Of a stretch of DNA of 64,000 nt, positions 4,894 through 61,534 are shown piece after piece. The stretch comes from Leptolyngbya sp. NIES-2104 (GTDB lineage: Bacteria > Cyanobacteriota > Cyanobacteriia > Leptolyngbyales > Leptolyngbyaceae), in assembly GCF_001485215.1 (NCBI RefSeq), contig NZ_BBWW01000001.1, forward strand, positions 3,410,001-3,474,000, given 5' to 3'. Made by a program: the position numbers and the translations under genes. Each line of letters starts with the position of its first letter. Position 1 is the stretch's first letter. A model generated the notes under the pieces. It was not told the DNA's origin and made no database searches. It was given only the letters and a program-made list of their open reading frames with translations.

Positions 4894-4941
4894 TTGCTAT
4901 GGGATTTGTTGTTATCGAACCATTCGCGAATTTGTTAGAAG

Positions 4942-5142
4942 ATGTTTGAGCAGTATGGAAAGTCTCTTCGCTCTCGTTCCGCTCCCGCCCTGAAATGAAT
5001 TTCGGGCTAATGGTGGAAAGTCTACTGAAGTAGACTCCGAGCAAGTTTAAGATTCTTAGTCCATTTCAATGGACTTTCGTCGATTAGCCCGAAATTCCAT
5101 TTCAGGGCGGGCTGTAGCAACGAACGAAGACGGCTCAAACAT
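4942..5142 (+). repeat. Quadruple-palindrome intergenic repeat, copy 1 (type A)
   Basis: The core (4984-5111) consists of four successive palindromes: CCCTGAAATGAATTTCGGG, AGTCTACTGAAGTAGACT, AGTCCATTTCAATGGACT and CCCGAAATTCCATTTCAGGG. The first and last are also complementary to each other, so the whole folds as a closed cloverleaf-like structure. Outer flanks extend the pairing (ATGTTTGAGC at 4942-4951 with GCTCAAACAT at 5133-5142). Five related copies occur at 9.4, 17.6, 48.0, 55.2 and 61.4 kb. This copy lies upstream of the perR-like gene and about 150 bp beyond the stop of the Rieske gene. No transposase gene accompanies it. Confidence 0.9.
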
Positions 5143-5293
5143 TTCTTTAGAAAATACAACTTTAATCGATAGTTTTATTCGTTCTCAGAGAGCTTTCATC
5201 CCTTACAGTTGACAGAAGTTAGCTCATCTGATCTATTTCTATCATACGCTAAAGCAAACTCGCTACAACTTTGCTTTAAGTTACCCAGCTTGC

Positions 5294-9319: not shown

Positions 9320-9333
9320 TCGTTTTTTTAAGA

Positions 9334-9536
9334 AAATGTTTGAAGATTTCTCGTTCGTCGCTGCATTCCGCCCTGAAATGAATTTCGGGCTAATCGACGC
9401 AAGTCCATTGAAATGGACTAAGAACTTGAATCTAGCTCTGAGTCTACTTCAGTAGACTTTCTCTCATTAGCCCGAAATTCATTTCAGGGCGGGAATCAAA
9501 CGAGAGCGAAGAGACTTTCTATACTTTGTAAAGCAT
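9334..9536 (-). repeat. Quadruple-palindrome intergenic repeat, copy 2 (type A, inverted)
   Basis: The core is at 9368-9493. It is the reverse complement of copy 1: AGTCCATTGAAATGGACT precedes AGTCTACTTCAGTAGACT, between the outer arms CCCTGAAATGAATTTCGGG and CCCGAAATTCATTTCAGGG. The right flank carries the conserved AACGAGAGCGAAGAGACTTT block seen in copy 4 and, in complement, in copy 1. The element ends within about four bases of the stop codon of the DUF58 gene at 9540, and begins about 15 bases before the DUF309 start. Confidence 0.9.
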
Positions 9537-9539
9537 TCT

Positions 9540-10667
9540 CTAAAGATTCTCTTGCAACTGAGCCTGCAACGATCGCGCTTTTTCCACAACGATCCCCGCA
9601 TTCATTGAACCTGTAGGCTTGCCTCCCCACAATACCCATCGGCTACCTGTTGGCAGTGTACCTAAGCTTTGTGAATTTTGAGTGAGCCAAACGATCGTTG
9701 CATCTGGCAAAGGTTGTGATTTCGATTCTTCATTCGCTTGAATTTCTGCCAGCGTTTCTAAAACCGTCTGCTGTCCCTGAATTAGTCCCGTTCCCGCTGT
9801 CCAAAGTTTCATCGTTAGCCTTTGACGATCGCCATAAAAATACAAAGATGCTGCCGTATTGACCGCTTCTTCAAACGCTTCTGGTTCCCACCTAGCAGCA
9901 CTGTCGATCGCGATCACAATCTCTTGCCCGCTGGTGAATGTTTCTAGTTCCCGTACCCGTAATTCTCCGTACCGGGCACTACTGCGCCAATGAATCATTC
10001 GCATGGGATCACCCCAACGGTACGGTCTAAGCGATCGAGTCATTCCTTCATTTGCGGCTTTTGCTCGTTGCGCTTGAAATTGCAGACTGTTTTGCTGTCC
10101 GAGTTGATCGATGAGCGGACAGCGCTGAAGCGGGAGAACTTTCGGATAAATAAGCGCGATCGCATTCACTGGAAACGTTTTACGACACCAAAACAATCCG
10201 AGCGGAGCCGCCGATCGCAGTTGAACCTCGTACCAGCGATAAATTCCCCGTCGCGTATCCGAATGCTGATAAACCCAGTAGTAGGCATTCTTCGGATTGA
10301 TCATCTCAACGATTCGCTGGGCAGGCGATCCGAGGACTGAAGGAATGCGATCGTCCGCTTGAATCAGCGTTTTACGTTGACGGGTTGAATTTTGGATCAA
10401 AAGCTCGATCGTTAACGGATCTCCCGCGCTAATCGGTTGAATCGGGCGACGAGTTACGGTTAATCCTTTCAGAGATTGGTGTGAGAGAAAAGCAGCGATC
10501 GTCATCAGTGCAAAAACGACTCCACTCATCACGTACAGCCAGCCCGACATCGAATTCGTCGCAGCTAGAAAGAAGAAGATACCCATCGCACCGAGTAGCC
10601 AACCGCTATAAGCCGGATTTATCCAGTGAGATTCAAGCCAATCCGTAATTCGGGTAACAGTACGCAT
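9540..10667 (-). CDS. DUF58 domain protein
   Basis: The 375-residue protein has two transmembrane helices near the N-terminus (about 18-60), an extracytoplasmic beta-rich region, and the DUF58 signature around residues 205-235 (PYRWGDPMRMIHWRSSAR), followed by a von Willebrand A-like segment (IVIAIDSAARW). DUF58 proteins are often encoded next to MoxR ATPases and are thought to act in assembly or maturation of other proteins. No MoxR gene is visible here. The stop codon abuts repeat copy 2, and the gene is divergent from the pilT-like gene. Confidence 0.85.
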   Translation of the reverse strand: MRTVTRITDWLESHWINPAYSGWLLGAMGIFFFLAATNSMSGWLYVMSGVVFALMTIAAFLSHQSLKGLTVTRRPIQPISAGDPLTIELLIQNSTRQRKTLIQADDRIPSVLGSPAQRIVEMINPKNAYYWVYQHSDTRRGIYRWYEVQLRSAAPLGLFWCRKTFPVNAIALIYPKVLPLQRCPLIDQLGQQNSLQFQAQRAKAANEGMTRSLRPYRWGDPMRMIHWRSSARYGELRVRELETFTSGQEIVIAIDSAARWEPEAFEEAVNTAASLYFYGDRQRLTMKLWTAGTGLIQGQQTVLETLAEIQANEESKSQPLPDATIVWLTQNSQSLGTLPTGSRWVLWGGKPTGSMNAGIVVEKARSLQAQLQENL

Positions 10668-15243: not shown

Positions 15244-16734
15244 ATGATACTTACTGCTGATCTGCTGCTGAACTATCAACGCTGTAGTCGTCGGGCTTTT
15301 CTCGATCGATACGGGGATGCGGAACAAAAAGATCCCCCAAACGATTACCTGTTAAAGCTGATACAAGATAGTGCAGAAAATCGGCGGCAAGTGTTAGCAG
15401 ACCAAGACCATCGCGCCCCTTCGTATAAGTCAGGCGATTGGCAGCGAGGCGCAGAAGAAACGTTAAGACTCATGCAGGCGGGAGTCGATCGAATTTATCA
15501 GCCTGTTTTAATCACCGAGGAAGAGAGCGTTACTCTCATCGCCAATCCTGACTTACTGATTAGACAGCCTGGTCAATCGATTTTTGGCGATTGGATTTAT
15601 ATTCCTTATGACATCAAATTGAGTAAGCGTCCAAAGCAGGAATATCAGATTGTCGTAGCTTACTTTGCCAAGGTGTTAGCGGCGGTACAGGGAGCTTGGG
15701 TCGAAGAAGCCTGGTTAGTTTTGAAAGAGCGCGGTGAGTTTGAGGTGGATTTGTGGGAAACAGTCCCACGCATGGAAGCGATTCTTTCAAGTTGTATTGA
15801 TAGTTTGAAACACCGACAGGAACCGGAAGTGTTTATCTCTCGCAGTCGGTGTAGTTTGTGTCACTGGTTTAGTCACTGTTATGCGATCGCGAAATCCGAA
15901 AATCACCTTTCTCTACTTCCCGGTGTGACTCAATCCCGATATGTTCAACTGCAAGCCCTGAATTTAACGACTCTAGAAGCTCTCGCCGAAACGCCTCCTG
16001 CTCGACTCGAACCGATTCCCGGATTTGGCAGCGAAACGGCACATAAAATTGTAAGACAAGCTCGATCGACGTTGCAGAATGCCGCTCTTCTGGGTGAAAG
16101 TTTAGCAGCGCATACGATGGGAAAACGACCCTTCCGAATGCCTGAGATTCCCACAGCAGCGATCGAGATCTATTTCGATATCGAAGCAGAACCGAGTTTG
16201 AACCTGGTTTATTTACATGGAATATTGGTTGTCGATCGAATAAATCAAACCGAAACCTTCCACCCCTTGCTGGCAGAAACCCCCGAAGAAGAAGCGATAG
16301 TGTGGCAAAAATTGATTGACTTACTGTGGGCGTATCCGACTGCGCCCATTTTTCATTTTTGCCCCTATGAACTGCAAACTGTAGAACGCCTTGGAAAATT
16401 ATTTGAGACTCCCGATGAATTAGTAAAACCTTTGCTGTCGCGATTTGTTGATTTGCATGATTGTGTGACTCAAACAGTTACTTTGCCTGTCGAAAGTTAT
16501 GCTCTGAAACATATCGCTCGCTGGGTCGGTTTTGATTGGCGCGATTCGAGTGCGAATGGAGCGCAATCGATTTACTGGTACGCTCAGTGGTTAGCAACAG
16601 GCGATCGCAGTTACTTAGACTCGATCGTGATCTACAACGAGGATGATTGTCGGGCAACCTATCAAGTGAAAGAATGGTTGGTGAATTTCCTGGATCAGGC
16701 AATCGCCCACAATGAGTTGGGTTATGCAGTCTAA
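15244..16734 (+). CDS. TM0106-family RecB-like nuclease with RNase H-like C-terminal domain
   Basis: The 496-residue protein joins two nuclease-like halves. The N-terminal half (about 1-220) resembles a RecB/Cas4 PD-(D/E)XK domain (NPDLLI, then YDIKLSK with the catalytic Asp-x-Lys). It has cysteines that could hold an Fe-S cluster: one near residue 14 (YQRCSRR) and three in RCSLCHWFSHC at about 200-210. A helix-hairpin-helix-like stretch (LEPIPGFGSETA) follows. The C-terminal half (about 300-485) is an RNase H-like/YprB exonuclease (IYFDIEAE, FHFCPYELQ, IYNEDDCRATY). A DNA repair or processing role is inferred. The ATG of the next gene overlaps its stop. Confidence 0.85.
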   Translation: MILTADLLLNYQRCSRRAFLDRYGDAEQKDPPNDYLLKLIQDSAENRRQVLADQDHRAPSYKSGDWQRGAEETLRLMQAGVDRIYQPVLITEEESVTLIANPDLLIRQPGQSIFGDWIYIPYDIKLSKRPKQEYQIVVAYFAKVLAAVQGAWVEEAWLVLKERGEFEVDLWETVPRMEAILSSCIDSLKHRQEPEVFISRSRCSLCHWFSHCYAIAKSENHLSLLPGVTQSRYVQLQALNLTTLEALAETPPARLEPIPGFGSETAHKIVRQARSTLQNAALLGESLAAHTMGKRPFRMPEIPTAAIEIYFDIEAEPSLNLVYLHGILVVDRINQTETFHPLLAETPEEEAIVWQKLIDLLWAYPTAPIFHFCPYELQTVERLGKLFETPDELVKPLLSRFVDLHDCVTQTVTLPVESYALKHIARWVGFDWRDSSANGAQSIYWYAQWLATGDRSYLDSIVIYNEDDCRATYQVKEWLVNFLDQAIAHNELGYAV

Positions 16735-17510
16735 TGACAAAGCTCGATCGCATTCTGATTTATCCAATCAAGTCTCTCGATGCTGTCTCGGTCAATCAAG
16801 CGAAGATTCTTCCGGGTGGATCTCTAGAGCACGATCGAGAATTCTGCATTGTCGATGAAAACGGGACTTGGGTAAACGGCAAACGAACGGCAAGAATTCA
16901 TCAGATTCGATCGCAGTTCGATCTAAAAACGCGAATCGTCACGCTGTCGGTTCAGAATGATCAACCCGTCAGTTTCCATCTTGATCACGGTCGGAGCGGG
17001 ATTGAAGGCTGGCTGAGTAATTATTTTGGGTTTCGAGTCTTTCTCAAACAAGATCTGAACACAGGATTTCCAGATGATCCGGTTTCTCCAGGACCAACAT
17101 TAGTGAGTGTGGCAACGTTAGAGAAAGCGGCTTCTTGGTTTGAGGGAGTCACAGTTGAGAGTTTGCGATCGCGTCTCCGCTCGAATTTAGAACTTTCCGA
17201 AGTTCCCGCATTTTGGGAAGAGCAACTTTATTCAGCCGATGGAAGCCCGATCGCGTTTCAAATCGGGGAAGTTCAGATTCAAGGAATCAATCCTTGTGCA
17301 AGATGTGTCGTTCCGACTCGTGATGCAATTTCGGGCGATCGCTATCCACAGTTTCAGAAAGTATTCCTTGCTCAACGCAAAAAAGAATTACCCGATTGGG
17401 CAGCAAAAGAGCGATTCGATCATTACTACCGCATGGCAGTCAATACTCGAATCGCTCCTTCTGAATCTGGAAAGGTTCTCAAAGTTGGCGATACCTTGGA
17501 AGGTATTTGA
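16734..17510 (+). CDS. MOSC domain protein
   Basis: The 258-residue protein has an N-terminal MOSC beta-barrel domain (ILIYPIKSLDAVSVNQA, about 5-110) and a C-terminal MOSC domain with the conserved cysteine in INPCARCVVPTRD (about residue 190). MOSC proteins carry sulfur or molybdenum-cofactor ligands; relatives include mitochondrial amidoxime-reducing component and the YcbX family. The substrate here is unknown. Its ATG overlaps the TAA of the nuclease gene (TAATG), so the two are translationally coupled. Repeat copy 3 begins at its stop codon. Confidence 0.85.
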   Translation: MTKLDRILIYPIKSLDAVSVNQAKILPGGSLEHDREFCIVDENGTWVNGKRTARIHQIRSQFDLKTRIVTLSVQNDQPVSFHLDHGRSGIEGWLSNYFGFRVFLKQDLNTGFPDDPVSPGPTLVSVATLEKAASWFEGVTVESLRSRLRSNLELSEVPAFWEEQLYSADGSPIAFQIGEVQIQGINPCARCVVPTRDAISGDRYPQFQKVFLAQRKKELPDWAAKERFDHYYRMAVNTRIAPSESGKVLKVGDTLEGI

Positions 17511-17685
17511 AGATTCGTCGCTTTCCGCATGACCCGCCCCGGAATGGAATTCGGGGCTAACGGTGCGAAGTCCCTTCAGGACTCAAAACCATATCGCGCC
17601 TTCTCTTCAGTCCCCTTCAGTGGACTTCGTTCGATTAGCCCCGAATTCTATTCCGGGGCGAGACTGAATCGAAGCGAAAAGACTC
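17507..17685. repeat. Quadruple-palindrome intergenic repeat, copy 3 (type B)
   Basis: The core at 17533-17660 has the GC-rich form of the arms: CCCCGGAATGGAATTCGGGG at the left and CCCCGAATTCTATTCCGGGG at the right. Between them are AGTCCCTTCAGGACT and AGTCCCCTTCAGTGGACT. It fills the space between two convergent genes, overlapping the MOSC stop codon and ending 18 bp from the stop of the next gene on the opposite strand, the position of a bidirectional terminator. Confidence 0.9.
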
Positions 17686-17702
17686 GTAAAACTGACGTTT
17701 CT

Positions 17703-29301: not shown

Positions 29302-29328
29302 GGTAGATCTGGGGGTAGAAGGGCGGGG

Positions 29329-29427
29329 TAGGGAGTGGGGAGTAGGGGGTAAGTCTGACGGTTGAGGGTGGCGAGGAAAGCAGCGATTTCACATCGTTCC
29401 CCACTCCCCACTCCCTACTCCCCACTC
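29329..29427. repeat. Inverted G/C-rich heptamer repeats (GGGGAGT type)
   Basis: A block of GGGGAGT-like units (29329-29350) is followed, about 50 bp later, by an opposed block of ACTCCCC-like units (29398-29427). The two share ACTCCCCACTCCCTA in inverted orientation. Short tandem heptamers of this kind are common between genes of filamentous cyanobacteria. It separates grxC from gshB and could form a strong hairpin in their shared transcript. Confidence 0.8.
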
Positions 29428-47702: not shown

Positions 47703-47907
47703 GAGTTTTACGCGATGCGCAGTGTGGTCTAAGTGGGTTTGCATGAATGCGGCAAATGATTTTGCCATCAGCATTCTACGTTTTCATTCGCCTATCCAGT
47801 TTACCAAGCTTCCTGCAACGCTTTTTCGCAGTTTTATTAAGAGTTGCAACAGGTCTTTACAATTTGGAACAAGGTACGAGGGGAGGATTTCGTATCTGGT
47901 ACTTGGA

Positions 47908-48112
47908 GGATATTTGAAACGTCTTCGATCGTTGCACTATCCCGCCCTGAAATGGAATTTCGGGCTAATCGGCGCAAGTCCATTAGAAATGGACTAAGAA
48001 CCTGGAACTCCCTCTGAGTCTACTTCAGTAGACTTTCATCGGTTAGTCCGAAATTCATTTCAGGGCGAGAGTACAACGAGAGCGAAGAGACTTTCCATAC
48101 TTTTCAAACATC
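47908..48112 (-). repeat. Quadruple-palindrome intergenic repeat, copy 4 (type A, inverted)
   Basis: The core (47941-48069) has arms CCCTGAAATGGAATTTCGGG and CCGAAATTCATTTCAGGG around AGTCCATTAGAAATGGACT and AGTCTACTTCAGTAGACT. The orientation matches copy 2, including the right-hand block AACGAGAGCGAAGAGACTTT and the outermost TTCAAACATCC, which pairs with GGATATTTGAA at the left end. The element stops four bases before the stop codon of the gyrase-type gene. Confidence 0.9.
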
Positions 48113-48115
48113 CGA

Positions 48116-50692
48116 TTACTCGATCGAGTCTTCATCCCCATACAACACAGGCAAGCTCACATGAGTCACCCGCTCAGTTTTGCTCAGTTTGACCACACGA
48201 GAACCGCGATCGTCTTTCAAACTCAAATCAATGTCATCGACATCAATCCGCGCTAGATGATTCTCATTCGTTAACAAGAACACGAGCGATTGAGGTAACA
48301 CCGCAACAATTCCAGCAACAATATCGGTTTTATTGTTGAAGTGGAAAGATTGAGTTCCCAATTCTCCAGCACTCGCCCGCCTTAAGGCTTTGACTTCCAT
48401 ATGTTTCGCGTAGCCTTGTTCGGAAATCATCAAGAACGTATCATCTTCGTTTGCGATCGCCCATCCGACGAGCCGTTCTTTCTTGCTCACGCGCATTCCA
48501 GTTTGACCTTGAGAAGTTCGAGTTGCGATCGGAATCTGCAAATCATTCACCTCGAATCTCAACACGCGACCGCTCGAAGTTGCTAACAGGACTTGCTCTC
48601 CAACCTGTACCGGACTGACACACAGCAATTGATCGCCTTCTTTGAGCTTCAGTGCGGTCAATCCTCGTCCTGTTAAATCAGTAAATTCAGACAGCGGTAA
48701 TCGTTTGATGCGTCCTTGTTCGGTGAGTAACAGCACAAATTGATCTTCGATTTCGTCGGGCAGGATGAATGTTCCTGCGATCGAGTCTGGTTCTGCTTGT
48801 GCAGCAGGTGGTAAGAGTGCAATCAGCGGTGTTCCTTTCGATTTGCCGTTGTTGGCTTGAGGAATGTCGCGAACTTTTACCGCAAACGCTTTTCCGCTTC
48901 GGGTAAACACAACGAGTGTTTTACCTGTGGTCGTGAAATCGGTTTGCGTCGCGAAATCGTCACCGTCTTCGAGTTCTTTCGTCGCTGTGTCATCGTTGCG
49001 ATTTTTGCTGAGTCGATCGTATGTTTTTGGAACCATGCGCCGCACATATCCACGCTGAGTCACTTCGACGACTGCTTTCTGTTCTTCTTCCTCAAACTCA
49101 AAGGATAAGTTCACGGTCGATCGTGCAGGAGCATCTTCTTTCTCACTCACTTCCGCCGCAACATCTACAGCAGCAATAATCTTCGTGCGTCGATCGTCTC
49201 CGTATTTTTTCTTCAGCGCTCTGAGATCTCTCTTCAGTGATTTGAGCAATTCTCGTCGATCGCTGAGTAACTTATGCAAGTCCTCCATTTTCCCAAGCAG
49301 TTCATCATGCTCGGTTTGCAGGCTTTGACGTTCCATTCCGGTTAGTCTTCGGAGCGGCATCGACAAGATCGCATCCGCTTGTCGATCGCTTAAATCTAAG
49401 CTTTCTTGCAGCTGAACTTTTGCGGTGCCGCCATCGGGAGCATTCCGCAAAATCTCGATCACATCATCTAAGTTTGCCAGCGCTTTTAACCGACCTTCTA
49501 AGACATGAAGCTGATTTTCGGCTTGGTTGTATTCGTTGCGATACTGCCGAGTCAGTGTCTCTTCACGGAATACTAAGAATGAGTTCAATAGCTCTCTCAA
49601 GGTCATCTGTTTCGGTTGACCGTTATCGAGTGCTAAGAGAATCGAGCCGAAATTCGTCTGTAGTGGAGTTTGACGATAGATAGCATTCAGAATTTTGTGA
49701 GGATTCGCATCGCGTCGCAGTTCGATGACCACTCGGATGCCTTCTCGATCGCTTTCATCACGCAGATCACCGATGCCTTCAATCTTGCCTGCGTTCACCA
49801 GTTCGGCAATCTTTTCGATCAGTCCGGCTTTATTAACTTGGTAGGGTAACTCTGTGATGACGATCGCGGTTTTTCGATGTTTACCGCGACCTGTATTAAT
49901 CTCTTCAACATTTGCAATTCCCCGCATCGGGACGCTACCTCGCCCTGTGAGATAAGCTTCCCGAATGCCGCTCGTATCAATGATTTCGCCACCTGTGGGA
50001 AAGTCAGGACCCGGAATCAATGCGAGCAGTTCATCATCCGATAGAGTGGGTCGATCGATCAGTGCGATCAGCCCATCAATCACTTCTCCTAAGTTATGCG
50101 GTGGAATATTCGTTGCCATCCCGACCGCAATCCCTGAACTACCATTCAGTAGCAGAATCGGTAATTGGGCAGGGAGTACAACGGGTTCTTGTTGTGAGTT
50201 ATCAAAGTTACCGACAAAATCGACAGTCGCTTCACTAATTTCATTCAGCAGAGATTCGTTACCGATCGCGGATAATCGCGTTTCGGTGTATCGCATTGCA
50301 GCAGGCGGATCATTATCTACTGATCCGAAGTTTCCATGACCACCGAGTAACGGATAGCGACTAGAGAAATCCTGCACCATTCGCACGAGGGCATCATAGA
50401 CCGCCTGATCGCCGTGAGGATGATACTTACCAAGGACATCCCCGACGACGCGGGCGCATTTTCGATAAGGGCGATCGGGAGTTAACCCCAATTCGTGCAT
50501 TGCGTATAAAATACGACGATGGACAGGCTTCAAGCCATCGCGACTATCGGGGAGTGCCCGCCCCACGATCACGCTCATGGCATATTCCAAATAGGACTGC
50601 TGCATCTCCGTATGTAAGGCAGTCGTGATAACCTGTCCGGTTGGAAGAATGTTTAACTGTTCTGATTGAGATTGAGGTCGCGTCCGAGCCAT
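48116..50692 (-). CDS. gyrA: Type II topoisomerase subunit A (GyrA/ParC)
   Basis: The 858-residue protein starts at [19 protein letters not shown]. The active-site Tyr135 lies in [10 protein letters not shown] and the helix-4 region is [12 protein letters not shown]; Gln96 stands where E. coli GyrA has Ser83. The C-terminal half (about 510-858) is the beta-pinwheel. The GyrA box (QRRGGxG-like), needed for DNA wrapping and supercoiling, is not recognisable: the equivalent stretch reads [20 protein letters not shown]. The protein could therefore be the ParC-like second paralogue of cyanobacteria rather than gyrase proper. An upstream ATG at 50734 lacks family support. Confidence 0.9.
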
Positions 50693-50841
50693 GAGCCTGT
50701 TATCCTGCTGAACTTTACAATAGTGAGAAACCAAGCGGTTGCTGAATGTCGATCGCCCGTCCTGAAAATACTAATACAGTTGAGCTACATTACAATCGTT
50801 CTATTTTGCCGTATCCAGTGCGTTTCGTCTGAGGAATTTAT

Positions 50842-55019: not shown

Positions 55020-55120
55020 AACTGAACAAGGGTGAATGCAATCCCTGTCTAGTATGGACAGAGAAAAACAAAAGCAGACGGGGTTGATGCCATCTGCTTT
55101 GAGAAATTCATCAGCGCTGG

Positions 55121-55315
55121 AGTGTGTTCTGAGACTTCTCGCTTCGTTTCTGTCCCGCCCCGGAATAGAATTCAGGGCTAATCGTGCGAAGTCCTTTGAA
55201 AAGGACTGAAGAGATTTCGTTTGGCTTTTAGTCCCCAGAGCGCGGACTTCGTTCTGTTAGCCCCGAATTCCATTCCGGGGCGAGTGAGCAACGAAGCAAG
55301 ATAACTCAGCACACT
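55121..55315. repeat. Quadruple-palindrome intergenic repeat, copy 5 (type B)
   Basis: The core (55154-55284) has arms CCCCGGAATAGAATTCAGGG and CCCCGAATTCCATTCCGGGG around AGTCCTTTGAAAAGGACT and a weaker AGTCC/GGACT hairpin. The flanks TCTCGCTTCGTT and AACGAAGC pair, as do AGTGTG-x4-TGAG and CTCAGCACACT. The element ends directly at the stop codon of the ndh gene (55316). Confidence 0.88.
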
Positions 55316-56656
55316 CTAAACGTTGACGGGTTCTTCTTTGCGTGATCGTACAGACGGAGACTCGCCTGGAACGAGCGTCGTATCGGTAATAATCCGCGCT
55401 CCACGGGAACGAGTAACATAGTTCCAAACCCACTGAATCATTACAACCAGTTTGTTGTCGAACTCGATCAAGAAGTAGATATGCGCCACGATCCAGATGA
55501 ACCAAGCAATAAAGCCAGACAGATGAACGCCACCGAGATTTGCAACGGCTGCATTTTGTCCAATCACGGCGAGGCTTCCGAATTCCTTGTACAGGAATCG
55601 AGGCAGCGATTGACCGCTTAATCTTGCTTTGATCAGTCGGGCAACATACTTACCTTCCTGCATTGCTACAGGTGCAACACCGGGATAAGGTTTACCTTCG
55701 GGATCAGCACAGTGAGCCAAATCACCGATTACGAAGATGCTGGGATGATTCGGAACGCTGAGATCGGATTCGACCATAACGCGACCCACACGATCGAGCG
55801 ATGCTCCAGTGCGATCGCTAATCACTCGACCGACACCGGAAGCTTTTACACCTGCCGCCCAGAGAATCGTTTTTGCCGAAATCGTTTCGCGGGTTTCGTC
55901 GTATTCGAGCGTGAGATTATCGCCGTCGATCTGTGTCACTTTGGTTTTTGTCCGCACTGTCACACCGAGCTTGGTCAAAGATTCAGCCGCCTTCACAGAC
56001 AAATCAGCCGGATAAGGAGGCAAAACGCGATCCAAACCTTCGATCAAGAGAATCTGAGCTTCAGTAGTGTCAATACTGCGGAAATCTTGCTTTAACGTGT
56101 GATTGGCGAGTTCTGCGATCGCGCCCGCTAATTCCACCCCGGTTGGACCGCCGCCGACCACGACAAAGGTGAGTAACGCTTTGCGCTTTTCGGGATCAGT
56201 TTCTTTTTCTGCTGCCTCGAATGCTGAGAAGATTCGGCGGCGCATCTCGATCGCATCTTCGATCGTTTTCAAGCCAGGAGCATCATCTTTCCACTGATCG
56301 TTGCCGAAGTAGTGATGACTTACGCCCGTTGCCACAATCAACGAGTCGTAAGGAATGGCTCCTCGGCTGGTCATGACTTGTTGCGTTTCGGGATCGATAT
56401 CCGTTGCTTCTTCCATCAGAACGCGGACGTTTTTCTGACGGCTGAGAATCGATCGCAACGGCGAGGAAATATCCGCAGGTGAAAGGTTTCCGGTCGCGAC
56501 TTGGTAGAGCAGCGGTTGGAACAAATGAAAATTGCGTTTATCAATCAAGGTCACATCAACATCGGCGTTTTTGAGACTTTGAGCGGCATATAAGCCCCCA
56601 AAACCACCACCGATAATAACCACACGATGCTTGGGCGGTTGTGTCACAGGTTCCAT
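55316..56656 (-). CDS. ndh: Type II NADH dehydrogenase
   Basis: The 446-residue flavoprotein has the FAD-binding motif VIIGGGFGGLYAAQSL (about 12-27) and the NADH-binding motif VVVGGGPTGVELAGAIAEL (about 165-183). A C-terminal hydrophobic segment (GFIAWFIWIVAHIYFLIEF, about 380-400) anchors it to the membrane. It passes electrons from NAD(P)H to the plastoquinone pool without pumping protons; cyanobacterial NDH-2 enzymes may also sense redox state. It is divergent from the yiaA-like gene, and its 3' end touches repeat copy 5. Confidence 0.92.
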   Translation of the reverse strand: MEPVTQPPKHRVVIIGGGFGGLYAAQSLKNADVDVTLIDKRNFHLFQPLLYQVATGNLSPADISSPLRSILSRQKNVRVLMEEATDIDPETQQVMTSRGAIPYDSLIVATGVSHHYFGNDQWKDDAPGLKTIEDAIEMRRRIFSAFEAAEKETDPEKRKALLTFVVVGGGPTGVELAGAIAELANHTLKQDFRSIDTTEAQILLIEGLDRVLPPYPADLSVKAAESLTKLGVTVRTKTKVTQIDGDNLTLEYDETRETISAKTILWAAGVKASGVGRVISDRTGASLDRVGRVMVESDLSVPNHPSIFVIGDLAHCADPEGKPYPGVAPVAMQEGKYVARLIKARLSGQSLPRFLYKEFGSLAVIGQNAAVANLGGVHLSGFIAWFIWIVAHIYFLIEFDNKLVVMIQWVWNYVTRSRGARIITDTTLVPGESPSVRSRKEEPVNV

Positions 56657-60912: not shown

Positions 60913-61341
60913 ATGAATACATTAAAACGAATTCGTCAAGCCGTATTGTTGGTTTTATTGATGGCATTTGTCTTAATTGCTCCAATGCAAGCAGCTTTTG
61001 CAGCAGATCCTTCCTACTCGCCAGGTGCACCGGATAGCCCAGAGAAGAAAGCAAAGACGCTGTTTGAAGGTCGTCGTAACGTCAGCGCCGGAGAACAACC
61101 GCAAGCGAAAGATTTACCGGAGAAGATTCAGCAAGATTTGCAAAACATTGACAGCGATCGACCCAAAACCACGGGTCAATGGAATCGTGAAGCTCGTGAA
61201 ACCGCAGGCGAACCGGGTGAACGTCTGGGACGGATTGCCAAGGAAACGGGTGAAGCTGTGAAAGACTTCGGCAAAATGTACCCCGATACCGCAGAGCGTA
61301 GCGGTGATGCACTGCAAGAGAGCCTCGATCGTTCTAATTAA
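60913..61341 (+). CDS. Secreted hydrophilic protein (unknown)
   Basis: The 142-residue protein has a signal peptide (about 1-30, ending AFA-AD) and a mature part that is highly charged and low in hydrophobic residues (RREARETAGEPGERLGRIAKET-like stretches), with the look of a late-embryogenesis-abundant or disordered protein. There are no cysteines. The function is unknown; a stress role is only suggested by composition. Repeat copy 6 begins 14 bp after its stop. Confidence 0.65.
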   Translation: MNTLKRIRQAVLLVLLMAFVLIAPMQAAFAADPSYSPGAPDSPEKKAKTLFEGRRNVSAGEQPQAKDLPEKIQQDLQNIDSDRPKTTGQWNREARETAGEPGERLGRIAKETGEAVKDFGKMYPDTAERSGDALQESLDRSN

Positions 61342-61354
61342 ACGCAGATTTGAC

Positions 61355-61531
61355 GAGGCTTCTCGCTTCGTTGTTCGCCCGCCCCGGAATAGAATTCGGG
61401 GAAGAGCGGTGCGAAGTCCCTTCAGGACTGCAAGCCTCCAATTCATGCGCCTTTAGCCCCCTTTAGTGGGCTTCGCACGATTAGCCCCGAATTCCATTCC
61501 GGGGCGAAGCGCAATCGAAGCGGAGCGACTC
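61355..61531. repeat. Quadruple-palindrome intergenic repeat, copy 6 (type B)
   Basis: The core (61378-61507) has arms CCCCGGAATAGAATTCGGGG and CCCCGAATTCCATTCCGGGG around AGTCCCTTCAGGACT and AGCCCCCTTTAGTGGGCT. In the second hairpin both sides changed together (AGCCC/GGGCT instead of AGTCC/GGACT), keeping the pairing. It fills the gap between convergent genes, 14 bp after one stop and four bases before the tsaB stop. Confidence 0.9.
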
Positions 61532-61534
61532 ACA

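Follow-up and report, generated by a model that had tools for sequence, protein, structure and literature searches.

Six related elements in the window

The window, by which we mean the whole stretch of 64,000 nucleotides that was analysed (C1:3410001-3474000, in a genome of 6.39 Mb and five contigs), holds six related elements in both orientations, all of them found where a sequence-only reading of this DNA had placed them. That reading had also described four palindromes in each core, with the outer two pairing with one another, and both features were seen here in cores of 123-127 bp, for which about 130 bp had been given. The elements themselves had been recognised correctly; their outermost bases had been missed, and copies 1 and 2 run from 4938 to 5146 and from 9332 to 9540, respectively. 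In the following list A and B denote the two types of core, P1 to P4 the four palindromes, and a and c two of the kinds of ends.

4938..5146, unstranded: copy 1, type A core, a ends; target duplication TTA at 4935-4937 and 5147-5149
4986..5109, unstranded: core of copy 1 (P1 to P4), four hairpins
9332..9540, unstranded: copy 2, type A core, a ends; target duplication TAA at 9329-9331 and 9541-9543
9369..9491, unstranded: core of copy 2, four hairpins
17499..17697, unstranded: copy 3, type B core; outer limits approximate
17535..17660, unstranded: core of copy 3, four hairpins
47906..48115, unstranded: copy 4, type A core, a ends; adjoins the stop codon of gene 48116-50734 (minus strand)
47943..48067, unstranded: core of copy 4, four hairpins
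55120..55316, unstranded: copy 5, type B core, decayed ends (GAGTGTG..CACACTC); limits approximate
55156..55282, unstranded: core of copy 5, four hairpins
61342..61534, unstranded: copy 6, type B core, decayed c-like ends; limits approximate
61380..61506, unstranded: core of copy 6, four hairpins

The last base of copy 2, a C, together with TA forms the TAG stop of gene 9540-10667 (minus strand), copy 5 adjoins the stop of gene 55316-56656 (minus strand), and copy 6 lies directly after the TAA of gene 60913-61341 (plus strand). At copy 3, the last codons of the neighbouring gene have been replaced by the element: its left end is the source of the in-frame TGA for gene 16734-17510 (plus strand), and where five aligned orthologues of this neighbour reach a conserved TGA, the element here gives TTG GAA GGT ATT TGA. 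The ends of this copy, a-like on the left (13/17) and c-like on the right (12/16), are probably mixed. The earlier remark that the window has no transposase gene was checked for three families (PF13340, PF01609 and PF01797), none of which has a place in C1:3410001-3474000. At window positions 29320-29426 there is an imperfect inverted repeat of low complexity, of the GGGTAGGGAGTGGGGAGTAGGG / CCCCACTCCCCACTCCC type, which is unrelated to the four-hairpin elements.

Each core comprises P1 (GCCC..GGGC), P2 and P3 (AGTC..GACT) and P4 (GCCC..GGGC), where P1 and P4 are close to being palindromes in themselves and in addition pair with one another. The sequence of the outer palindromes is, exactly or with small deviations, GCCCTGAAATGAATTTCGGGC in type A (copies 1, 2 and 4) and GCCCCGGAATGGAATTCGGGGC in type B (copies 3, 5 and 6). 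Four RNA folds, of copies 3 and 6 on one strand and of copy 1 on both strands, had z values of -7.0 to -11.4 against 200 dinucleotide shuffles each. When a structure made of the P1-P4 pairing and hairpins P2 and P3 was applied to 35 cores, 96.3% of cells were paired, and pairing dropped to about 50% once the partners were slid by one column. In these 35 cores, 115 cells were changed on both sides (shuffle mean 43.4) and the covariation score was 0.217 (shuffles 0.111), values that were in both cases reached by 0 of 500 shuffles. Two weaker controls gave 13 pairs with a double change, a number reached by 7 of 500 shuffles, and a count of further pair types that lay below all 500 shuffles. The shuffles do not allow for relatedness, and the double changes amount to few events because most of those in the trunk separate types A and B. 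Rfam returned no match over the gathering score, with 0 in the window and otherwise microRNA models only, far below gathering, and a known Rfam RNA family was rejected on these grounds.

The copies are not confined to the 64 kb. A half-palindrome pattern has 374 exact matches in the genome (198 forward, 176 reverse) and its reversed control has 0; since an ordinary full element gives at most one such match per strand, about 200 copies per genome is a floor. We also took a sample of 1.264 Mb (about 20% of the genome) consisting of C1:1-800000, C1:1980001-2380000 and the window, in which a profile gave 89 matches without overlap; 68 of these exceed 120 bp. Full copies are taken to be the 65 matches of 150 bp or more: 29 from C1:1-800000, 30 from C1:1980001-2380000 and 6 from the window. 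Their density is a biased estimate, the second of these stretches having been picked as a known rich one. The exact half-palindromes and the full copies bear out the earlier projection of hundreds of copies per genome.

Related forms were seen as well. Single-hairpin relatives with similar arms lie at C1:189525, 5973, 202526, 272621 and 2086598 (T2 106598), as expected if recombination between P1 and P4 loses the middle, and half elements, with P3 and P4 only or nearly so, lie at C1:37322, 227513, 379274 and L282 1854-1935. The right half of C1:2148409-2148581 (T2_168409) is a perfect extended inverted repeat, resembling a template-switch product. Two copies are long (C1:497637-498033 and 528016-528258), one with extra palindromic sequence within the core and the other with a longer P2-P3 linker.

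Terminal repeats, target duplications and insertion sites

Complete elements measure about 200-210 bp. Alignment of 30 copies with their flanks showed their commonest ends, the a ends, which read GAGGRTGTTTGAAAAGT ... ACTTTTCAAACAYCCTC, lie beyond the earlier bounds and in many copies are flanked on both sides by TAA or TTA. Identical 3-bp flanks, all TAA or TTA, border 14 of the 24 copies typed a/a. The sequence-only reading had correctly seen a mobile repeated family but had missed the terminal inverted repeats and target duplications by which these are DDE-type MITEs, the IS5-family element elsewhere in the genome that has the same ends, the link to stop codons, and the sharing of the core with MITEs that have other ends.

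A comparison with empty sites, which had been proposed as a check, was carried out and revealed no insertion in relatives at copies 1, 2, 3 and 6. Including copy 5, five of the six copies (1, 2, 3, 5 and 6 were compared) are absent from related genomes, with near-exact junctions for four. Copy 1 has its empty site in the same-genus genomes G004, G003 and G001. Copy 2 has one in G006 and G007; at its place G001 carries another hairpin repeat and the G004 stretch is unalignable. For both copies the target duplications agree with the empty sites. The site of copy 3 is free of insertion in G004, G003, G001, G006 and G007. Judged by one protein, the nearest named relatives are the Leptolyngbya-like cyanobacteria Phormidium tanganyikae, FACHB-63, LEGE 13415 and Leptolyngbya Prado105; copy 6 has no insertion in LEGE 13415 and FACHB-63 (L068, L067), and its place in P. 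tanganyikae (L066) is held by another hairpin. Copy 5 is missing in all four aligned relatives, with flanks too diverged for a clean junction. At a further locus (L175 at 11145), the gaps between matches measure 19 bp in G004 and 38 bp in G001, compared with about 220 here, which suggests another empty site in these two genomes; G003 holds another hairpin repeat at this place.

With ORFs called by a simple longest-first rule, 60 of the 65 full copies in the 1.264-Mb sample are intergenic and the other 5 fall within called ORFs that are short (243-477 bp), so that the description of the copies as always intergenic applies to most, not all, of them. The 60 intergenic copies occupy 23 convergent, 34 tandem and 3 divergent sites, compared with 8.5, 32.6 and 18.9 expected from the available bases (P 5e-9). 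Copies at the 34 tandem sites lie a median of 0 bp from the 3' end of the gene upstream and a median of 85 bp from the start of the gene downstream, and 29 of them are nearer the 3' end. Moreover, 14 of the 35 a-type ends that face a 3' end sit exactly at the stop (offset 0 or -1), where 5.0 would be expected from even hits on TAA/TTA between 15 bp before the gene end and the next gene (717 of 5005 sites in element-free regions; P 1.8e-4). At offset 0 the duplicated TAA is the stop, at offset -1 the element's first G completes TAG, and three more a ends provide a stop through the TGA inside GAGGATGTTTGA. The neatest reading is that of a filter, in which insertions survive where a stop is restored.

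The genome also encodes a matching insertion sequence. This 915-bp element, present in seven copies with ends GAGGGTGTTTGAAAAGA / GAGGGTGTTTTAAAAGT, shares the a ends, and each copy is flanked by a repeated TAA, TTA or TCA; a second insertion sequence of 902 bp, with ends GAGGACGTTTGAGAAGT, occurs as a single copy. Both encode IS5-family transposases (NF033580, PF13340, PF01609). According to PMC12016507, members of the IS1031 group within the IS5 family favour TNA targets and generate repeats of 3 bp. The four-hairpin core was not found in the 915-bp insertion sequence, with which the terminal repeats alone are held in common, and the MITE therefore shares its ends only. The four-hairpin elements are MITEs, and not REPINs or IS200/IS605 palindromes: their terminal inverted repeats are common with those of an insertion sequence in the same genome, they make a 3-bp TNA duplication and relatives have empty sites, whereas an internal sequence derived from the 915-bp insertion sequence by deletion, which is not obligatory for all MITEs, is absent.

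The core with other ends and in other genomes

Among the 38 type A cores in the sample, 23 have a ends on both sides and 1 has b ends on both. The 27 type B cores comprise 11 that are b/b, 6 that are c/c and 1 that is a/a, the rest being mixed or partly untyped, and in 22 of them one or both ends are of the b or c kind. The b ends read CTAG-GGYRTGYTTTAAAG and the c ends ACGTSARTTCGATGA; counting both core types, 2 of the 12 b/b copies have kept CTAG intact on each flank. Typing was automatic and errs on decayed ends: copies 1 and 2 were mislabelled as mixed a/b, are a/a by alignment with the empty sites, and the automatic count of mixed ends is not relied on here. One sampled copy, T2_38588, still looks mixed in its ends. 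In relatives, inspection by eye showed that 4 of 5 copies fetched from G004 are type B cores with a ends, and that the 14 fetched from G007 include one A core and one B core with b ends.

Further kinds of ends were seen at a greater distance. From G020 and G010, which represent other genera of the family, 20 copies were fetched among the best-scoring matches listed. Each of the 20 has a d end (CTGRTTGACTGACAAA, imperfectly matched) on one side or both, and 15 of 19 d pairs have 9-bp flanks that match at 8 or 9 places when a shift of one is allowed. A d element of G020 also hit one plasmid, the Nostoc edaphicum plasmid pNe_5 (NZ_CP054697.1), where locus L323 (94990-96840) shows, by eye, a four-hairpin layout between the inverted ends GGTGTCAACTTAA and TTAAGTTGACACC, perhaps a fifth kind. 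A type A element of the window genome had no match in plasmid or phage collections, and carriage of the wider family on plasmids is possible.

As for sources of these other ends, a search of the window genome by exact end pattern and at 45 loci from two transposase families yielded no autonomous element with b or c ends; the genome has few exact copies of either end (8 matches for b and 5 for c). Three other IS5-type insertion sequences there are bordered by CTAG, with ends (GGGCGTATCTGCAAA, GGGCGTGTCATCAA and AGAGGGTGTTATGCAC) that resemble b or a at their beginning and diverge further in; b ends may thus derive from a group of this kind. No d-ended transposase was found in 400 kb of G020, where there is one pair of d ends, 200 bp apart.

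The search of the genome and its relatives with a covariance model, also proposed earlier, matched 26 of 58 genomes of the class at E 1e-4: all 8 in the genus (window genome included), 13 of 27 in other genera of the family and 5 of 23 in other families of the class. Counts per genome were taken among at most 59 matches listed, with both strands of one element scored, and are thus not copy numbers. Across genera the stem sequences turn over and the four-hairpin layout stays. In some copies of G020, G022, G028, G046 and G056, P1 and P4 mismatch mutually and each still folds (by eye); the conserved plan therefore looks like four local hairpins, not a long stem. A crude count gave at least four local hairpins in 21 of 24 inspected cores, and fewer in 3. 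The core as one long hairpin was dropped, P1 and P4 being no longer complementary in some copies from distant genomes.

We read the core as a modular structured cargo common to several transposon families. Going further, it might be an independently evolving hitch-hiker module whose ends were repeatedly exchanged among transposon families (with duplications of 3-bp TNA, 4-bp CTAG and 9 bp, and perhaps the Nostoc-plasmid ends), which spread through cyanobacteria in this way and is kept since it makes insertions next to stops tolerable to the host, a proposal that we put forward tentatively and at slightly less than even odds.

A two-part model, its alternatives and known repeats

Our main reading, to which we give a probability of about 0.8, is that the elements are two-part MITEs, composed of transposase-recognition ends and a conserved four-hairpin core, with insertions that mostly persist at stops and a core that may insulate or shield the 3' end. 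The outer part would be a pair of recognition ends, most commonly GAGGRTGTTTGAAAAGT with a TNA target, and a-end elements are probably mobilised in trans by the IS5-family insertion sequence with the same ends. The inner part would be the core, which also occurs in MITEs with other ends and other target duplications. Insertions would persist mostly at or just past stop codons because the TAA/TTA (or CTAG) duplication, the first G (TTA+G = TAG) or the built-in TGA leaves a stop; the core would thereby come to lie within the 3' untranslated region, on one strand or the other, and might make insertion less costly by insulating the adjacent genes or protecting the 3' end of the mRNA. Ends, we infer, would be exchanged between copies, perhaps by recombination or template switching, as suggested by the perfected extended hairpin of T2_168409 and the single-hairpin derivatives at several sites. 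A 3' insulator is the weaker inference within this model. A classical terminator is unlikely: two copies scanned had no promoter or intrinsic-terminator pattern and no U-tract terminator, which speaks against it. The 3' bias could also arise without any function of the core, if insertions at other places are selected against.

This last point belongs to another view, in which the elements are ordinary MITEs, non-autonomous derivatives with a core of dead filler and a 3' bias that is purely a matter of purifying selection. Terminal inverted repeats, target duplications and a matching insertion sequence all exist, and the more the ends have decayed, the weaker is the P1/P4 pairing (Spearman 0.31, P 0.013), as this view would have it; we nevertheless regard it as rather unlikely, given that the 915-bp insertion sequence shares terminal repeats alone and lacks the core, and that the core is found between four or more kinds of ends, with a layout that persists from genus to genus as the stems change. 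In addition, P1/P4 identity is 0.89 in the third of copies with the worst ends, whose mean best match is 0.72 (a figure on a different scale), and 0.95 in the best third, and we take the identity kept in copies with decayed ends as mild evidence of selection after insertion. The covariation of the stems and the 3' position in both orientations would also suit a cis-acting RNA of the host, for instance a bidirectional terminator or a stabiliser of the 3' UTR, passed on by vertical inheritance and multiplied through selection for its function, its mobility being incidental. This is improbable, since the element is absent at five window sites in every readable relative, the target duplications show transposition, and no U-tract terminator was found in two copies.

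Movement of REPIN/RAYT or IS200/IS605-derived palindromes by a Y1 transposase, which tandem palindromic units, intergenic positions and high copy number bring to mind, is very improbable. Y1 elements of both kinds are not known to have target duplications or terminal inverted repeats, whereas the four-hairpin elements have both, and the earlier view that they do not belong to these families was upheld. A Y1 gene bracketed by the same hairpins, for which a check had been proposed earlier, was looked for and not found: the genome has one Y1_Tnp match, with an internal stop, and a half core (P3 and P4; L282 1854-1935) just past its 3' side, with none on its other side. Neither b nor c ends occur in the 3.3-kb Y1 locus, whose two a-like matches are weak and distant from the Y1 match, and a half-palindrome occurs, on the plus strand alone, in 72 of 385 sampled stretches of the same length. 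A REPIN/RAYT origin was rejected on the internal stop and the one-sided half core. We likewise think it quite unlikely that the wider family is partly an artefact, with a covariance model dominated by a long inverted repeat catching unrelated inverted repeats. Distant matches are weaker (E about 1e-5 to 1e-15), some of them, such as L235, look poor, the three inspected cores that fell short of four local hairpins in the crude count are on this side, and local-fold z values range from -2.1 to -6.4; on the other hand, the inner hairpins (AGTCC..GGACT or AACCC..GGGTT), the loops and the linkers are retained in distant copies, beyond the inverted repeat itself, and the d family was observed in individual copies.

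BOX elements and Correia/NEMIS repeats, from other phyla, are modular or structured and are transcribed with neighbouring genes; we know of no four-hairpin core with exchangeable ends among them. IS5-family MITEs of the IS1031 subgroup resemble the four-hairpin elements in their GA-type ends, 3-bp TNA duplication, small size, many copies, no coding capacity seen and a DDE transposase elsewhere in the genome, and differ in that the core here does not come from the insertion sequence found and also travels with other ends. The very small mobile repeats of cyanobacteria reportedly have units far shorter than the four-hairpin elements. By their title, those repeats (Elhai et al. 2008) are alike in being small, mobile and cyanobacterial, and Nezha (Zhou et al. 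2008) is alike as a cyanobacterial MITE. The REP/REPIN GTAG families (PMC3733652) are likewise palindromic repeats found in cyanobacteria among others; the four-hairpin elements appear to differ in having no Y1 source and clear DDE-type ends. In the literature searched, which included PMC12016507, PMC10969869 and PMC3733652 and not the Nezha and Elhai papers, we noticed no account of this four-hairpin family, and an earlier description is possible. The MITE is known as a kind; a conserved four-hairpin core that several end types have in common is, as far as we can tell, new.

It is usual to define MITEs by their ends and to regard what lies between as debris. In four-hairpin MITEs the inside is constant and the ends are variable, which allows one to ask what the cargo of a gene-less transposon is selected for. 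A duplication that restores the stop at insertion sites would offer a simple explanation for hundreds of copies in a bacterial genome, and with insertion-free sites at hand in close species, effects on adjacent transcripts can be tested directly.

At three loci that are occupied here by the four-hairpin element, relatives carry a different long hairpin repeat, of the CCCCCTAAATCCCCCA..TGGGGGACTT type (L255, G001 C1:69150-69550; L066, about 5232-5283; L262, G003 C743:3700-4300), and gene 3' ends seem to be reused by unrelated hairpin repeats.
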